Shown one piece after another: positions 18,340 through 26,069 of a stretch of DNA of 64,000 bases; positions within the stretch are counted from its first letter, which is position 1; each line of letters opens with the position of its first letter. The translations under genes were made by a program, and so were the position numbers. The notes under the pieces are model-generated. The model searched no databases and had not been told where the DNA came from. It worked only from the letters and a program-made list of their open reading frames with translations. Source of the stretch: Herminiimonas arsenitoxidans (lineage in GTDB: Bacteria; Pseudomonadota; Gammaproteobacteria; Burkholderiales; Burkholderiaceae_D); contig NZ_LT671418.1 of the NCBI RefSeq assembly GCF_900130075.1, positions 1,674,001-1,738,000 on the forward strand. The letters run 5' to 3'.

Positions 18340-18882
18340 CTAGGCCAGCGTAAACGGCGGCGGAACGGTTTTCGATCCCTCGATCAAGCCATAGACCGCC
18401 ACGTTCAACGCTGTTTCAGCGCCTATTGTTCTGCTGCACTCTGCAATGATAAAAGCAGTCGCCAGAGTTGCTGCTTGTGCAGCTTGCTCAAAATTCAGAT
18501 TGTTCTCTTGCATGATGAGAAGCAGGCCATCCTGCAGCGAGGTAATTGATTCCTCGAAGGACAAGTTAGGTTCTTCGCCGCGCAAAGACTTGTCTCCTCC
18601 CAGCTTTTCCGTATCCAGTGGTATCCCCCGGCTTGTAAGCGCAGAGGACAAAAGCGCCAGTAAGTCCGGAGCTTTTTCGTTTGCCTCTGCCGACAAAACA
18701 ATCGCTCCTCGCTCCAGCTTATCCAGATCAAAGTTAAATGATCTCAAAAGAAAACTGCCCGATAAGCGTGCAACCACCGCAATCACTGTCTCTGGATGTA
18801 TTGCACGATTTTGACCTATCCGCATTGCCAACAGCTCGACTATCTGCCCGGCCGCATTGTTCTGTTCACTTGTAATATTCAA
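18340..18882 (-). CDS. hypothetical protein (180 aa)
   Basis: Soluble, mostly helical protein with no Trp or Tyr-rich core motif, signal peptide or recognised domain. Residues 60-100 are Ala/Leu/Ser-rich; the C-terminal half (FEQAAQAATLATAFIIAECSR) is a strong amphipathic helix. A clear AGGAGG ribosome site lies just before the ATG, so it is really translated. Two copies of one hairpin flank the gene as terminators at 18178 and 19001. No function can be assigned. Confidence 0.6.
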   Translation of the reverse strand: MNITSEQNNAAGQIVELLAMRIGQNRAIHPETVIAVVARLSGSFLLRSFNFDLDKLERGAIVLSAEANEKAPDLLALLSSALTSRGIPLDTEKLGGDKSLRGEEPNLSFEESITSLQDGLLLIMQENNLNFEQAAQAATLATAFIIAECSRTIGAETALNVAVYGLIEGSKTVPPPFTLA

Positions 18883-19000: not shown

Positions 19001-19027
19001 AAAAAGCGACGCATTGCGTCGCTTTTT
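19001..19027. terminator. hairpin terminator, copy 2, after lpdA
   Basis: AAAAAGCGACGCA / TGCGTCGCTTTTT, with the same GCGACGCATTGCGTCGC core as the hairpin at 18178-18203. On the minus strand it ends the pyruvate dehydrogenase operon 23 bases after the lpdA stop. Confidence 0.8.
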
Positions 19028-19049: not shown

Positions 19050-20876
19050 TTATTTCTTGCGCATCGGTGGCAAATCAGTACAAACACCTTTGTACACTTC
19101 AGCCGCCATACCAATTGACTCACCCAAGGTCGGATGCGGGTGGATGGTTTTGCCAATATCAACTGCATCTGCACCCATCTCGATCGCCAGCGCGATTTCA
19201 CCGATCATGTCGCCAGCATGTGTGCCGACTATGCCACCACCAACGATACGATGTGTTTCTGCATCGAACAGCAATTTGGTGAAGCCTTCGTCACGACCAT
19301 TGGCTACGGCACGACCCGATGCTGCCCATGGGAAGTGACCTTTTTCGAGCTTGATGCCTTTGGCTTTGGCTTCATCTTCGGTGATACCTACCCATGCCAC
19401 TTCTGGATCGGTATAAGCGACAGAAGGAATCACGCGTGCGTCGAAGTAGGCTTTTTCACCAGCGGCTGCTTCTGCTGCGACGTGAGCTTCGTGCACGGCT
19501 TTGTGTGCCAGCATAGGTTGACCAACCAGATCACCGATAGCGAAGATGTGCGGCACGTTGGTACGCATTTGCGCATCGACTTCGATAAAGCCACGGTCGG
19601 TAACAGCTACGCCAGCTTTGTCGGCTGCAATCTTCTCGCCATTCGGGCTGCGGCCAACTGCAACCAGGACCAGATCGTAGACTTGCGGTTCCGGCGCTGT
19701 CACACCGGCTTCGGCCGCTTCGAAAGAAACCTTGATGCCTTCTTTCAATGCTTCGACCGCTACAGTCTTGGTCTTCAACATGATTTTATCGAAGCGCTTC
19801 TCGTTGAACTTCTGCCAGACCTTGACCATGTCACGATCTGCGCCTTGCATCAGGCCATCCATCATTTCGACCACGTCTATGCGTGCACCCAGTGTAGAAT
19901 AAACCGTCGCCATTTCCAAACCGATGATGCCGCCGCCGATGACCAGCATGCGCTTAGGCACGCTGCGCAATTCGAGCGCACCAGTAGAATCGACGATGCG
20001 TGGATCTTGCGGCACGAAAGGCAAGTTCACTACTGACGAACCGGCAGCGATGATCGCTTGTTTGAAGTGTATGGTTTTCTTGCTGCCGTCTGCTGCGGTC
20101 ACTTCAATGTGATTCGGACCGACGAACTGGCCTACGCCTTGTACGACATTGACCTTGCGTGCTTTCGCCATACCAGCGAGGCCGGTGGTCATCTTGCCGA
20201 TGACTTGTTCCTTGTAGCCGCGCAGTTTGTCGATATCGATTTGCGGCTTGCCGAAGGTCACGCCATGCGCTGCCATCGAAGCTGTTTCATCAATCACTGC
20301 CGCTACGTGCAGCAAAGCCTTGGATGGAATACAACCGACGTTCAGGCAAACACCGCCGAGTGTCGAGTAACGTTCAATCAGGACGGTAGACATGCCCAGA
20401 TCGGCTGAACGGAAGGCTGCGGAATAACCGCCAGGACCTGCGCCCAGAACCATCATGTCGCACTCGATATCTGCGGTACCGCCGAAGCTGGCTGCGCTTG
20501 GTGCAGCAACTGGCGCTGCAGCCTGAACTGGTGCTGGAGCAGCAGTTGGAGCCGGTGCTGCTGCAACAGGTGCAGGAGCTGGCGCGGCGGCTGGTGCTGG
20601 TGCTGGCGCAGGAGTCGCAGCCGGTGCCGGCGCGCTTTCCGATGCTTCCAGGATCAGCAACAGTGAGCCTTCAGCAATTTTGTCGCCCAGTTTGACTTTC
20701 AATTCTTTGATGACACCGGCGTGGCTGGATGGAATCTCCATACTGGCTTTGTCGGATTCGACTGTAATCAGCGATTGATCGACCTTGATCGTATCGCCCA
20801 CATTGACCAGCACTTCAATAATTTCAACTTCCTTGAAATCGCCGATATCGGGGACTTTCATTTCAATCATGCTCAT
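19050..20876 (-). CDS. lpdA: dihydrolipoamide dehydrogenase (E3) with N-terminal lipoyl domain
   Basis: E3 of the pyruvate dehydrogenase complex, 608 residues: reoxidises dihydrolipoyl groups and passes electrons to NAD+. Residues 1-76 are a lipoyl domain with the lipoylated Lys43 in ESDKASME, then an Ala-Pro linker to about 130. The flavoprotein follows, with FAD motif VLGAGPGGYSAAF, redox disulfide CLNVGC, NAD motif VIGGGIIGLEMA and C-terminal HPHPTLGES. The lipoyl domain is nearly the same as that of the E2 encoded upstream. Lipoyl-bearing E3 is known in Betaproteobacteria and Neisseria. Confidence 0.95.
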   Translation of the reverse strand: MSMIEMKVPDIGDFKEVEIIEVLVNVGDTIKVDQSLITVESDKASMEIPSSHAGVIKELKVKLGDKIAEGSLLLILEASESAPAPAATPAPAPAPAAAPAPAPVAAAPAPTAAPAPVQAAAPVAAPSAASFGGTADIECDMMVLGAGPGGYSAAFRSADLGMSTVLIERYSTLGGVCLNVGCIPSKALLHVAAVIDETASMAAHGVTFGKPQIDIDKLRGYKEQVIGKMTTGLAGMAKARKVNVVQGVGQFVGPNHIEVTAADGSKKTIHFKQAIIAAGSSVVNLPFVPQDPRIVDSTGALELRSVPKRMLVIGGGIIGLEMATVYSTLGARIDVVEMMDGLMQGADRDMVKVWQKFNEKRFDKIMLKTKTVAVEALKEGIKVSFEAAEAGVTAPEPQVYDLVLVAVGRSPNGEKIAADKAGVAVTDRGFIEVDAQMRTNVPHIFAIGDLVGQPMLAHKAVHEAHVAAEAAAGEKAYFDARVIPSVAYTDPEVAWVGITEDEAKAKGIKLEKGHFPWAASGRAVANGRDEGFTKLLFDAETHRIVGGGIVGTHAGDMIGEIALAIEMGADAVDIGKTIHPHPTLGESIGMAAEVYKGVCTDLPPMRKK

Positions 20877-20979
20877 CGCTTTAGCTCCATATTTTTTATC
20901 CTGCTCGTCCCGCTCTATGCGTCGAGTCCTGGATTGATATTTTTTAGTAACCTTGAATTACACGTTATCCATTACAAAT

Positions 20980-21549
20980 TCATCCCTGCATGGGAAAACT
21001 GATGATCTGAAACGGTGCTGCCGTATTCTTGTCAAACTCCGCTCCTGCATGCACGCCGATTTCTGCAATTTCCTTGGCACTGGCTGCACCGTCGTAAACT
21101 GCATACATCGCGCCCAGAGCAAAATTTCGTCCGCTACCTATGCCCCAGAAACGATCGAAACTGAATACTTCACGATACGAGTAAATACCGAAGATGCCGT
21201 GCGGATTCGCTATCAAAGTCGCGATCTGCGAAGACTCGTAAGGGTCGTCTTCCTCTTCTTTCGTATTCAGGAAGTACTTATCTTTCAGTATCTGATGCGC
21301 CTTGGTAAAGGTATCGAAGACTTCATCGCGGCTATTCAACTTGCAGTCTTCGCCCATGCTCGTCAGCAATTTACGCATGACGGGAAAATGCGCAGCTGTG
21401 CCGGCCAAGGTGATGTAGGAGTCGCCGATACGGAACATCTTGTTGTTCTCTTCGTACGCATGAGACAAACGTGTATCGCCGAAGGTCACCAGTGAATCGC
21501 AGGCAATCGCGATTTCATTATTCTTTTTGACAACCACACAAGTAGTCAT
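20980..21549 (-). CDS. bph: HslV/proteasome-like Ntn hydrolase (betaproteobacterial proteasome homologue)
   Basis: 189 residues with the proteasome beta-subunit fold. The start MTTCVVVKKNNEIAIACDS matches HslV: after Met removal Thr1 is the N-terminal nucleophile and the Asp in CDS is residue 17, as in HslV and 20S beta subunits. Lys36 in NNKMFRI probably equals catalytic Lys33 with a 3-residue insertion. A later IGSGRNFALGAMYA matches the HslV GSGG..A region. This fits BPH, a proteasome relative described from Betaproteobacteria as double-ring assemblies. It lies between aceF and lpdA on the same strand, so it is probably co-transcribed with pyruvate dehydrogenase. No HslU-like ATPase gene is near. 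Confidence 0.82.
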   Translation of the reverse strand: MTTCVVVKKNNEIAIACDSLVTFGDTRLSHAYEENNKMFRIGDSYITLAGTAAHFPVMRKLLTSMGEDCKLNSRDEVFDTFTKAHQILKDKYFLNTKEEEDDPYESSQIATLIANPHGIFGIYSYREVFSFDRFWGIGSGRNFALGAMYAVYDGAASAKEIAEIGVHAGAEFDKNTAAPFQIISFPMQG

Positions 21550-21607
21550 GCCAACACCTCATGAAGGTGAACAGAATATTTGAAATCGCTCATTGCGGTG
21601 CGGTCGA

Positions 21608-22966
21608 TTACAGCAGCGACTTGCGCAGATCGGTCAGCATTTCGCTCAGATACGTCACGAAACGTGCGCCCATAGCACCATCGATCACGCGGTGATCGTA
21701 AGATAGCGACAAAGGCATGATCAAGCGCGGCACAAATTGCTTGCCATCCCATACCGGCTTCATCGAAGTTTTCGACAAACCGATAATCGCCACTTCCGGT
21801 GCATTGATCAACGGTGTGAAGTAAGTACCGCCGATGCCGCCCAAGGACGAGATCGTGAAGGTCGCGCCCTGCATGTCGGAACCTTTAAGCTTGCCGTCGC
21901 GTGCCAACGCCGACAGTTCGCCCATTTCCTGTGCGATCTGCGTAACCGACTTCTGATCGACGCCTTTGACGACAGGAACTACCAAACCTTGCGGTGTGTC
22001 GGCAGCGAAGCCGATGTTGTAGTACTGCTTGAGGATCAGGTTTTCACCAGATGCATCGAGCGAGGAATTGAACTCTGGGTATTTTTTCAGCGCTGCAACG
22101 CAAGCCTTGATGACGAATGCGAGCATCGTCAACTTGACGCCGGATTTTGCCAGCGCGGTGTTGGTCGATTTACGCAGTTCTTCCAGCTCGGTCACGTCCG
22201 CTTCGTCGTATTGCGTAACGTGCGGAATCATGACCCAGTTGCGATGCAAATTCGGGCCACTGATTTTCTTGATACGCGACAGTGGTTGCAAGGTGGTTGT
22301 ACCGAACTTGCTGAAGTCCAGCGATGGCCATGGCAACAGATCCAGACCTGCACCGCCGCCTGTTTTCACTGGTGCCGCAGCTGCAGTCGCAACCGGACCG
22401 GCAGCAATGATGCCCTTCACATAATTCTGTACGTCTTCCTGCGTGATGCGTCCTTTAGGACCAGAGCCGACGACCTTGCCGAGATCAACACCGAGTTCGC
22501 GTGCGAACTTGCGTATCGATGGCGACGCGTGTGCTTTGTGGCTGGCCACAGTCGCTGGAACTGCGGCAGCTACTGGTGCAGCTTGAACCGGAGCTGGCGC
22601 GGCGACCGGCGCAGGAGCAACAGGTGCCGGAGCAGCTACTGGCGCTGGTGCTGCGGCAGGTGCAGCTTCAACCTTGACTGGTTCCGGAGCAGGTGCTGCA
22701 GGCGCCGGAGCCGCAGCAGGAGCTGCAGCGGATTCTTCCAGCAACAAGACCAACGCACCTTCTGCGATTTTGTCACCGAGTTTGATTTTCAATTCTTTAA
22801 TCACACCAGCGTGGCTGGATGGGATTTCCATACTGGCTTTGTCGGATTCAACCGTGATCAGGGACTGATCGACTTTAATCGTATCGCCCACTTTGACCAA
22901 CAGTTCAATGACCTCGACTTCTTTGAAGTCGCCGATATCCGGGACTTTGACTTCGACCATGCTCAT
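21608..22966 (-). CDS. aceF: pyruvate dehydrogenase E2, dihydrolipoamide acetyltransferase
   Basis: Core acetyltransferase of the complex, 452 residues, moving acetyl groups from lipoyl arms to CoA. One lipoyl domain (1-76, Lys43), a long Ala-Pro linker, a peripheral-subunit-binding domain (about 145-185, SPSIRKFARELGVDL) and a catalytic domain ending DHRVIDGAMGARF with the active His. It has a single lipoyl domain, fewer than E. coli; the E3 carries another. It begins 112 bases after aceE, with a large hairpin in the gap. Confidence 0.95.
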   Translation of the reverse strand: MSMVEVKVPDIGDFKEVEVIELLVKVGDTIKVDQSLITVESDKASMEIPSSHAGVIKELKIKLGDKIAEGALVLLLEESAAAPAAAPAPAAPAPEPVKVEAAPAAAPAPVAAPAPVAPAPVAAPAPVQAAPVAAAVPATVASHKAHASPSIRKFARELGVDLGKVVGSGPKGRITQEDVQNYVKGIIAAGPVATAAAAPVKTGGGAGLDLLPWPSLDFSKFGTTTLQPLSRIKKISGPNLHRNWVMIPHVTQYDEADVTELEELRKSTNTALAKSGVKLTMLAFVIKACVAALKKYPEFNSSLDASGENLILKQYYNIGFAADTPQGLVVPVVKGVDQKSVTQIAQEMGELSALARDGKLKGSDMQGATFTISSLGGIGGTYFTPLINAPEVAIIGLSKTSMKPVWDGKQFVPRLIMPLSLSYDHRVIDGAMGARFVTYLSEMLTDLRKSLL

Positions 22967-22995
22967 CTTTTATCTCCGCTTGTTTGCGTGTCCAC

Positions 22996-23056
22996 CATCA
23001 CGACTGCGGGGAGGCAAATGGTGATTTCCATTTGCGTCCCCGTCGCCTCAGTGATG
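22996..23056 (-). other. long hairpin in the aceE-aceF gap
   Basis: CATCAC (22996-23001) pairs with GTGATG (23051-23056), and inside it GGGGAGGCAAATGG pairs imperfectly with CCATTTGCGTCCCC. There is no T tract. It may protect the aceE mRNA end or tune aceF expression. Confidence 0.5.
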
Positions 23057-23078
23057 AGGAAGGATTTTTGTATGTAGA

Positions 23079-25775
23079 TTACAGCGTAACCGGATTGGCT
23101 TTTTCTGGATTGATGCCGTACTTCGCAATTGCTTCTGCAACCACGGAAGTAGCAATCGCACCTTCATCTGCCAATGCCTTGAGTGCCGCGATCGTGACGA
23201 AGTAACGGTTGACCTCGAAGAACTCACGCAATTTCGCGCGGCTGTCCGAACGGCCGAAGCCATCAGTGCCCAGTACTTTGTAGGTACGATCTTTCGGTAC
23301 GAACGCACGTACTTGTTCTGCAAAGGTACGCATGTAATCGGTCGCCACCACGATAGGACCCGCTGTGCCTTGCAAGGACGAGGTGATGTGCGCCTGACGT
23401 GGTTTGTCGGTCGGGTGCAGCATGTTCCAGCGTTCTACGTCCTGACCGTCGCGGGCCAGCAAGGTGAACGATGGTGCGGACCAGACATCGGCAGTAACGC
23501 CCCAGTCGTCTTTCAACAAATCGGCAGCAGCGATCACTTCGCGCAGGATGGTGCCGGAGCCCATCAGCTGTACGCGGTTCTTCGCTTTTTTCGCGCCTTC
23601 TTGCAGCAGATACAGACCTTTGAGGATGCCCTCTTCCTGACCTGGCTTCAAACCTGGTTGTGCGTAGTTCTCGTTCATCAGGGTGATGTAATAGAACACG
23701 TCTTCCTGGTTTTCGATCATGCGCTTCAAGCCGTCATGCATGATGACTGCGACTTCGTGCGCGAAGGTTGGATCGTAAGGAATGCAATTCGGGATAGTCG
23801 AAGCCAGGATGTGGCTGTGACCATCTTCATGCTGCAAGCCTTCACCGTTCAGCGTGGTACGACCAGCTGTACCGCCGAGCAAGAAGCCACGTGCACGGAT
23901 ATCGCCCGCTGCCCATGCCAGATCGCCGATACGTTGCAGACCGAACATCGAGTAGAAGGTATAGAACGGCACCATCACACGGTTGTTGCTCGAGTACGAA
24001 GTTGCAGCTGCAATCCATGAAGCCATCGCGCCAGCTTCGTTGATACCCTCTTGCAGAATCTGACCGGCTTTATCTTCACGGTAGAAGCTGACTTGGTCCT
24101 TATCGACTGGCTCGTACAACTGACCTTGACGGTTGTAAATACCGATCTGACGGAACAAGCCTTCCATACCAAAGGTACGGGATTCATCAACCAGAATAGG
24201 TACAACGCGTTTGCCCAGATTTGCATCGCGCAACAGGATCGAGATGATCCGTACATACGCTTGTGTGGTCGAGATTTCACGACCTTCTGCGGTTGGGTCC
24301 AGCACTGCTTTAAATGCAGCCAATTCTGGCACCGGCAATGTTTCTTCTGCCTTCTGACGACGCTGTGGCAAGTAACCGCCGAGCGCTGCACGACGTTCGT
24401 GCAGGTATTTCATTTCCGGCGCGTCATCTGCTGGCTTGAAGAATGGAATATCAGCCAGTTGATCGTCAGGAATAGGCAAGGCAAAGCGGTCGCGCATTTC
24501 GCGTACTGCTTCGTCATCCAGTTTTTTGGTTTGATGCGCAGTGTTACGCGCTTCGCCCGATTTGCCCATACCGTAACCTTTGACGGTTTTGACCAGCAGG
24601 ACGGTCGGTTGACCTTTGTGTTCTTGCGCTTGCTTGAAGCCAGCGTAAATCTTGTGTGGATCGTGGCCGCCGCGCAGCAGATGCCAGATGTCGTCATCCG
24701 ACATGCGCGAAACCATTTCCAACAATTTTGGATGCTTACCGAAGAAGTGCTTACGTACATAAGCGCCGTCTTTGGCTTTGTAATTCTGGTATTCACCGTC
24801 CAGCGTTTCCATCATCACGCGTTGCAAAATGCCGTCTTTGTCTTTAGCCAGCAGTGGGTCCCAGTTGGAACCCCAGATAACCTTGATGACATTCCAGCCT
24901 GCGCCACGGAATTCGCCTTCGAGTTCTTGAATGATCTTGCCGTTGCCGCGTACCGGACCGTCCAGACGCTGCAAATTACAGTTGACGACCATGACCAAGT
25001 TGTCGAGTTGTTCGCGACCAGCTACGCCGATTGCGCCCATCGATTCCGGTTCATCCATCTCACCGTCGCCGCAGAATACCCAGACTTTACGGTTATCGGT
25101 TTTAGCCAGCTCACGTGCGTGCAGATATTTCAGGAAGCGTGCCTGATAGATAGCCATCAATGGACCCAAGCCCATCGATACAGTCGGGAACTGCCAGAAG
25201 TCTGGCATCAATTTTGGATGCGGGTAGGAAGACAAACCGTTGCCGTCCACTTCGCGACGGAAGTTCAGCAATTGTTCTTCGCTCAAACGACCTTCGAGGA
25301 AAGCGCGTGCATAGACACCTGGCGATGAATGCCCTTGGATGTACAGCAAATCACCGCCGTGATCTTCGGTTGGTGCGTGCCAGAAATGGTTGAAGCCGGT
25401 ACCCAGCATGTTCGCGAGTGACGCGAAGCTGGAGATATGACCACCCAGATCGCCGTCTACGCGGTTGGCTTTAACAACCATCGCCATCGCATTCCAGCGC
25501 ATCCATGAGCGCAGGCGTTCTTCGTATTCGAGGTTGCCTGGCGAGTTTTCGCCCAGGTCTGCAGGGATGGTATTGACGTATGCGGTATTGCCGGAGAATG
25601 GGATCTGCGAACCACGACGACGTGCCAGATCAATCAGGCGCTCCATCAGGTAATGAGCGCGGTCAGGGCCCTCGTTTTCGATAACCGCTTCGAGGGCATC
25701 AAGCCACTCTTGCGTTTCCATTACATCGGGATCGTTGGCGGCTTGCGCCAATACCTGGTCGAGCTGGGCTGACAT
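23079..25775 (-). CDS. aceE: pyruvate dehydrogenase E1, homodimeric type
   Basis: Thiamine-diphosphate enzyme that decarboxylates pyruvate and acetylates the E2 lipoyl group; 898 residues, the usual size of the homodimeric form. The ThDP/Mg motif is VFCGDGEMDEPESMGAI about residue 230. The N-terminus (ETQEWLDALEAVIENEGPDRAHYLMERL) is the E2-binding region typical of AceE. AGGAGACA precedes the ATG. It is the first gene of the operon aceE-aceF-bph-lpdA; no PdhR regulator gene is adjacent. Confidence 0.96.
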   Translation of the reverse strand: MSAQLDQVLAQAANDPDVMETQEWLDALEAVIENEGPDRAHYLMERLIDLARRRGSQIPFSGNTAYVNTIPADLGENSPGNLEYEERLRSWMRWNAMAMVVKANRVDGDLGGHISSFASLANMLGTGFNHFWHAPTEDHGGDLLYIQGHSSPGVYARAFLEGRLSEEQLLNFRREVDGNGLSSYPHPKLMPDFWQFPTVSMGLGPLMAIYQARFLKYLHARELAKTDNRKVWVFCGDGEMDEPESMGAIGVAGREQLDNLVMVVNCNLQRLDGPVRGNGKIIQELEGEFRGAGWNVIKVIWGSNWDPLLAKDKDGILQRVMMETLDGEYQNYKAKDGAYVRKHFFGKHPKLLEMVSRMSDDDIWHLLRGGHDPHKIYAGFKQAQEHKGQPTVLLVKTVKGYGMGKSGEARNTAHQTKKLDDEAVREMRDRFALPIPDDQLADIPFFKPADDAPEMKYLHERRAALGGYLPQRRQKAEETLPVPELAAFKAVLDPTAEGREISTTQAYVRIISILLRDANLGKRVVPILVDESRTFGMEGLFRQIGIYNRQGQLYEPVDKDQVSFYREDKAGQILQEGINEAGAMASWIAAATSYSSNNRVMVPFYTFYSMFGLQRIGDLAWAAGDIRARGFLLGGTAGRTTLNGEGLQHEDGHSHILASTIPNCIPYDPTFAHEVAVIMHDGLKRMIENQEDVFYYITLMNENYAQPGLKPGQEEGILKGLYLLQEGAKKAKNRVQLMGSGTILREVIAAADLLKDDWGVTADVWSAPSFTLLARDGQDVERWNMLHPTDKPRQAHITSSLQGTAGPIVVATDYMRTFAEQVRAFVPKDRTYKVLGTDGFGRSDSRAKLREFFEVNRYFVTIAALKALADEGAIATSVVAEAIAKYGINPEKANPVTL

Positions 25776-26069
25776 AATTTGTCTCCTGATTTGTCTTTAG
25801 TACCGTTCTTTGTAAGAACGATCCGTCATTTTTAAAACTGATAACACGTATAGTCGTGTAGTTTGCGCTGAGTTTAACAGCAGTTTTTGTTATTTTCAAA
25901 TGGCGATATCATTTCTCATAATGCGAAATTATGCGGCATAGCAGCATTTTTGCGGACTTTTAGCGGCATTTTAAGAGCATGTAAACTCGCCGCAAAAGCA
26001 CCATTCAGACATGTCCTGATAAGCCTTTATAATCTAGGACTTACTCCTTCAATCACCTACATTTAACTC

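Follow-up and report, generated by a model that had tools for sequence, protein, structure and literature searches.

In this work, we analyzed the gene of a betaproteobacterial proteasome homologue (BPH) that lies inside the pyruvate dehydrogenase complex (PDC) operon in a 64,000-nucleotide stretch of the Herminiimonas arsenitoxidans genome (contig NZ_LT671418.1, positions 1,674,001 to 1,738,000; the whole stretch is hereafter called the window), together with the genomic contexts of its homologues. The comparative results support the view that the linkage to the PDC goes back to a single ancient event, in which the gene entered the aceF-lpdA gap in a common ancestor of several betaproteobacterial families, and we consider it fairly probable that BPH, a descendant of HslV, performs there a proteolytic job that is unspecific for the PDC and dispensable. 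Structures of BPH have been solved, yet this proteasome relative is functionally unexplained, and the genes next to it in its operons are a main clue to what it does. Both the presence of BPH in a PDC operon and a negative test of the main inference drawn from it are already in print; what is new here is the distribution of BPH contexts across genomes.

For these contexts, Fuchs et al. reportedly cite Valas and Bourne (2008) as their source. The gene is described in the PDC operon of Cupriavidus metallidurans, with argG in Thiobacillus denitrificans and with Hsp33 in Laribacter, and Sideroxydans is given as having BPH as the sole family member (PMC5777263). According to the text of the same paper, two BPHs form homo-tetradecameric double rings, residues of the HslU interface are not conserved, no partner ATPase was found, removal of the start Met exposing the catalytic Thr1 was shown for the Cupriavidus protein, and epoxomicin was bound at Thr1. 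Two BPHs had no protease activity in vitro, being inert on peptides and casein, and carbonylation patterns were unchanged by BPH both in extracts and in an Escherichia coli strain without the major proteases (PMC5777263). Pull-downs in C. metallidurans recovered neither PDC subunits nor HslU (section 6 of the paper), and BPHs with a Ser1 are described there from organisms outside the Betaproteobacteria. Its main text does not contain the words riboflavin, ribD, yajQ, hslR or Hsp15, and yajQ, hslR and the riboflavin genes are neighbours that the present survey adds to those named in that text.

The host genome (G000; 3.78 Mb in a single contig, with Herminiimonas as the nearest named relatives) holds one BPH copy, and the features of its operon are collected in Table 1. 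An earlier note, made from the sequence alone, had described the gene order on one strand with gaps of 112, 58 and 103 bases, a terminator after lpdA and none in the interior, and the coordinates agree with this description. None of 200 shuffles was as good as the hairpin past lpdA, which is missing from the list of the consensus scan, probably because its T run was taken up in the stem; the same scan gave no minus-strand terminator-like site in the three gaps and no promoter-like site in the aceF-bph gap. The ATG of bph is preceded within a few bases by GAGGTG, which resembles a ribosome-binding site. We regard the site upstream of aceE as weak because the number of such sites is near chance, with eight found in the region and 6.7 expected. 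From the gaps and the terminator, bph is likely to be co-transcribed with the genes of E1, E2 and E3. Directly past the terminator, a 180-residue open frame on the minus strand (18340-18882) has no Pfam or NCBIfam match at E 0.001. On the other flank, divergent from aceE, the plus strand carries folD and an M3 oligopeptidase of the thimet oligopeptidase type (PF01432; 26070-28996), a second peptidase beside the PDC operon.

Table 1. Features of the PDC operon in the window (positions are those of the window).
Feature	Position	Strand	Basis
aceE, pyruvate dehydrogenase E1 (homodimeric type)	23079..25775	minus	TIGR00759 1448.7 bits, cut-off 859.9
aceF, dihydrolipoamide acetyltransferase E2, one lipoyl domain	21608..22966	minus	TIGR01348 614.5 bits, cut-off 552.1; PF00364, PF02817, PF00198
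bph, betaproteobacterial proteasome homologue (BPH), 189 residues	20980..21549	minus	phmmer to PDB 5ovu_A, E 5.6e-84; PF00227
lpdA, dihydrolipoamide dehydrogenase E3, N-terminal lipoyl domain	19050..20876	minus	TIGR01350 468.7 bits, cut-off 408.8; PF00364 at 5-76
Rho-independent terminator of the operon	19001..19027	minus	12-pair stem, loop of 3, T run; -23.2 kcal/mol, z -5.54
Weak promoter-like site upstream of aceE	25871..25899	minus	9/12 consensus, TG before the second hexamer

The inserted gene, which the note had called HslV-like and compared with BPH, is a BPH. Besides belonging to the proteasome family (PF00227, E 4.6e-8), its product matches 5ovu_A over residues 2-185 and 5ovs_A over residues 2-182 (E 6.1e-37), which we assign to the C. 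metallidurans and T. denitrificans proteins, respectively, by way of the Lys37 that PMC5777263 gives for the argG-type protein; 126 of the 184 positions aligned with 5ovu (68%) are identical. Thr1, Asp17 and Lys36 stand where the note had placed them, counted after Met removal, and are accompanied by Gly49 and Ser138; Thr1 comes straight after the Met, with no propeptide. Throughout an alignment of 225 rows, in which the window is joined by 224 loci and 216 sequences are distinct, Lys36, Gly49, Gly137 and Gly139 are invariant, Asp17 is present in 224 rows and Ser138 in 216, and the first residue is Thr in 213 rows and Ser in the other 12. The pore loop of the window's protein, LNTKEEEDDPYESSQ, is long and acidic (net charge -5); the charge is -4 to -5 in the 76 PDC-linked rows, window included, and the loop is acidic in nearly all rows of each genomic context, four Ser1 copies having one that is not clearly acidic. 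Where it is kept, BPH is under purifying selection, with pairwise dN/dS values of 0.054, 0.044, 0.028 and 0.036 in four comparisons, near those of aceF (0.018 to 0.043) and above those of lpdA (0.010 to 0.015); these values, from a custom script of the Nei-Gojobori type, are rough because dS reaches 0.99.

The absence of a partner ATPase nearby, also remarked on from the sequence, was borne out for hslU, which has no match in the window. In the host genome, hslU scores above the cut-off only at C1:2968384-2969727, beside the true hslV, and this hslV-hslU pair (C1:2968384-2970285) is about 1.3 Mb away. With one representative taken per family, HslV and HslU were each found in 26 of the 28 that bear BPH (the tallies become 28 of 30 when two BPH-less relatives are taken in), and both were missing at the thresholds used in the remaining two, G024 and G046, whose completeness is estimated at 100% and 99%. 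HslU is therefore no obligate partner of BPH; occasional use of HslU may occur.

Across the order, BPH was found in 151 of 399 genomes and in 71 of 159 genera. Besides the window's own locus, we fetched 149 loci from 146 genomes of this order sample, spread over 28 families; four genomes with a BPH match without a listed place (G046, G233, G351 and G376) are left out of the counts. With contexts labelled by the ORF clusters found within 1.5 kb on the same strand, which are not curated annotation, 15 loci have PDC genes as neighbours, 62 hslO and/or hslR, 50 argG and/or yajQ, and 22 none of these. The simple gene call used does not contain the BPH gene at L159, L225 and L240, which are context-labelled all the same, and it picked the opposite frame at several loci such as L102. 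In an NCBIfam check of a single representative per main neighbour cluster, HslO (276.1 bits, cut-off 244), ArgG, ArgF, ArgD and YajQ were above their cut-offs, and the Hsp15 representative reached 93.1 of 148 bits, under the cut-off but with this family as its sole hit. PDC-linked loci are found in seven of these 28 families (f1, f3, f9, f19, f20, f31 and f49). A further 75 named loci comprise 60 PDC-linked ones, 8 with hslO, 5 with riboflavin genes and 2 others; these favour close, PDC-linked copies because they were found with the query's own patterns, and owing to this bias the context proportions are taken from the order sample. The two sets partly overlap, so that the 224 loci plus the window reduce to the distinct BPHs counted above and the 75 PDC-linked loci to 69. 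Among the neighbour clusters of the fetched loci, no gene was seen travelling with BPH across contexts. The idea of BPH as a plasmid gene was rejected after a search of 72,556 plasmid records gave no match at E 1e-5.

Several of these contexts deserve a description of their own. In 36 of the 149 loci, all of them among the 50 labelled as arginine loci (L207, L209, L217 and L221 are examples), the strand of bph also carries, not more than 1.5 kb away, a yajQ gene (cyclic-di-GMP-binding family NF003819, by a check of one representative). In five gammaproteobacterial MAG contigs (L095, L096, L098, L105 and L108), a BPH of the Ser1 type sits between ribD and ribE in a riboflavin operon, of which ribD and nrdR of L108 and ribE of L098 were named by NCBIfam and the rest by clustering. 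Ser1 BPHs also exist inside the betaproteobacterial order, in 6 of the 149 loci: L208, L211, L213, L206, L235 and L239. In the genomes of the first three (G157, G342 and G118, respectively), a Thr1 copy is present as well, and the Ser1 copy, which has the non-acidic loop LNPRKDSDDAYKTTR, is a second paralogue.

The BPH tree bears on the origin of the PDC linkage. In this tree (122 rows after an 85% identity filter; a quick one, with SH-aLRT values in place of bootstrap and a long Thioploca row), all 31 PDC-linked rows fall on one side of one branch (SH-aLRT 96), and the linkage labels require one change, against an average of 27.9 for shuffled labels, which makes several independent insertions into the PDC operon superfluous. 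The arrangement is constant: all 75 PDC-linked loci have aceF upstream on the same strand, and 72 have lpdA downstream, the contigs of the other three (L062, L090 and L110) ending first. The BPH-PDC operon of L091, a contig labelled Rhodospirillales, groups with that of the Burkholderiales contig L088 in both the BPH and the lpdA trees; L091 is probably misbinned or mislabelled.

Within the window's family, presence and absence, read from drafts and MAGs as well as from complete genomes, divide into 58 of 145 genomes with BPH and 87 without a BPH match. The conserved insertion in the aceF-lpdA gap that the earlier note had proposed to look for holds for every genome of the family that bears the gene, and does not hold for the family as a whole. 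In all 58, the BPH match begins 11 to 241 bases past the aceF match on the same strand, counting one of two BPH places for G437 and the second piece of a split match for G474 and G488. Both aceF and lpdA were matched in 71 of the 87 BPH-less genomes, the other 16 lacking one or both at strict thresholds, and in all 71 they lie on one contig and one strand, only 2 to 394 bases apart, which leaves no room for bph between them; these distances are between match ends, gaps counted from upstream-most start codons being too small or negative in several cases. In the 40 BPH-less genomes fetched, hand-picked from the 71, tblastn gave no trace of BPH, and two of these 40, which belong to the window's own genus (G416 and G513), have 112-base aceF-lpdA spacers that hold no bph.

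On a tree of aceE plus aceF (81 rows, 39 of them BPH-less; also quick and without bootstrap, L046 and L299 being dropped as too short), the presence of BPH changes 10 times, at least 8 of them on strongly supported branches and one inside the window's genus, a count that could be inflated by transfer of the whole operon because the tree is built from operon genes. Such counts alone cannot separate gain from loss; loss is favoured because the site is always the same and the BPHs form a single clade. The BPH match of G488, a 1.7-Mb genome belonging to genus g2, lies between aceF and lpdA (G488:C53:10599-11155) and is split into two overlapping pieces, which suggests decay in a reduced genome; the match of G474, a poor assembly, is likewise split.

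Two types of lpdA occur in the window's family, and the distant one is about 55 to 65% identical to the E3 core of the window. In the lpdA tree, from which L061, L062 and L063 were dropped as too short, the distant type forms one clade with full SH-aLRT support, and it is scattered on the aceE plus aceF tree with six changes. E3 was replaced several times, then, with BPH keeping its place; L112, L113 and L041 exemplify the exchange when compared with the window. Co-evolution of BPH with the E3 type was considered from the raw counts (the distant type in 13 BPH-bearing and 3 BPH-less rows, the near one in 27 and 36, respectively) and rejected, as independent pairs amount to about one each way and the link is gone after correction for kinship.

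From the presumed co-expression with E1, E2 and E3, the earlier note had argued for a part of BPH in quality control, turnover or processing of the PDC or of lipoylated proteins, and it had itself named the occurrence of the gene elsewhere in most relatives as the finding that would speak against this. At the level of the order that is what we observe, since 134 of the 149 BPH loci adjoin no PDC genes, and the published pull-downs were negative (PMC5777263). A dedicated PDC role is thus unsupported, and the operon looks like a convenient place of expression rather than a pointer to the PDC as a substrate. We consider it unlikely that the PDC or lipoylated domains have in BPH a dedicated factor for quality control or processing, co-expressed for that purpose, even with a position inside the operon kept through the divergence of seven families, strong purifying selection on bph, and long, Ala/Pro-rich flexible linkers in E2 and E3 that might be accessible to an ATP-independent chamber. 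Apart from the loci away from PDC genes and the pull-downs already mentioned, the PDC genes occur without bph in all 71 BPH-less genomes of the family that have both genes matched, and lpdA was exchanged without effect on BPH. Moreover, aceF was found in 18 of 21 representatives of the families with BPH elsewhere (three have no aceF match at the threshold), with aceE upstream in all 18, lpdA within the 1.5-kb flank in nine and BPH within it in none. More doubtful still is a capture of BPH by the PDC in the PDC-linked clade, whereby it would act co-translationally on nascent or unlipoylated E2 or E3 and could be lost but no longer moved. We keep this reading because the gene was never seen to move in that clade; if it were true, the capture would have left its trace in the fixed position within the family, which contrasts with several different positions in the rest of the order.

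The explanation that we favour, PDC-unspecific proteolysis from a gene that entered the operon once, would run as follows. BPH is an HslV-descended member of the proteasome family, its start Met probably removed to expose the catalytic Thr1. Judging from the 68% identity, it very probably assembles like its solved homologues into a tetradecamer of two rings, whose active sites face inward and whose pore loop is long and acidic. The single insertion would have placed bph in a transcript with the PDC genes, where the operon most likely supplies steady expression. Its job would most likely be an ATPase-free proteolysis, of a housekeeping or stress-related kind, in which the acidic loop gates the entry of a narrow range of unfolded or flexible substrates. 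In sister lineages, a bph beside hslO/hslR, argG-yajQ or other genes would do this job just as well; the repeated loss of the gene suggests that this job is dispensable. Against PDC-unspecific proteolysis stand the lack of in vitro protease activity for two BPHs and the unchanged carbonylation (PMC5777263), the Ser1 copies whose pore loop is not clearly acidic, and the fixed position in the 58 family genomes and 75 PDC-linked loci, which could mean selection for staying. Possible, though not likely, is the proposal of Fuchs et al. (PMC5777263) that BPH serves as a general protease under oxidative stress and needs no ATP, in the manner of the free 20S core, hence its Hsp33/Hsp15 (Hsp15 being added by the present survey), arginine synthesis or PDC neighbours. 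The 62 loci with hslO (Hsp33) and/or hslR (Hsp15-like) and the acidic pore loop shared by nearly all rows per context agree with it, but the inertness on casein and peptides and the carbonylation results in extracts and in protease-deficient E. coli (PMC5777263) do not, and argG and the PDC are stress-linked only loosely. We give little credence to a non-degradative role, as a specific processing enzyme or transpeptidase of a single substrate: an intact, epoxomicin-reactive Thr1 with no general protease activity (PMC5777263), an active site nearly invariant in 225 sequences and the description of the monomeric relative connectase as a ligase (PMC8665760) would fit it, whereas the ring chamber hides the active sites, unlike in connectase, and no gene accompanies BPH from one context to another. 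Finally, the patchy distribution (58 of 145 family genomes) and the apparently broken copy of G488 might recall a decaying relic without function, a very improbable view that is largely refuted by the purifying selection on bph (dN/dS 0.028 to 0.054) and opposed by its complete active sites.

Taken together, one origin, repeated loss and the exchange of E3 weaken the clue that the PDC neighbours had offered, and the same results open the PDC hypothesis to a test on natural pairs. One natural comparison sets close relatives of the Herminiimonas type that carry bph against others that lack it at the same site; BPH-bearing genomes without HslV and HslU provide another.

Within the proteasome-like proteins, the BPH of the window shares with HslV of the HslVU system the fold family, the Thr1/Asp17/Lys pattern and a weak HMM match to residues 2-51. 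However, it is far under the equivalog cut-offs (26.7 against 157.75 bits for TIGR03692, 27.4 against 137 for NF003964) and has no adjacent hslU, and on these grounds it was rejected as a true HslV. Anbu, connectase and the other groups discussed in PMC8665760 belong to the same proteasome-like superfamily, in which the text of that paper treats BPH as a group of its own, with double heptameric rings. The T. denitrificans protein (PDB 5ovs/5ovt) is of the same family, but differs from that of the window in its argG operon context and in having Lys37 instead of Lys36 (PMC5777263). The window's protein and the BPH of a different species, C. metallidurans (5ovu), between which no functional difference was seen, have in common the aligned Thr1, Asp17, Lys and acidic loop, as well as the same kind of operon (PMC5777263).
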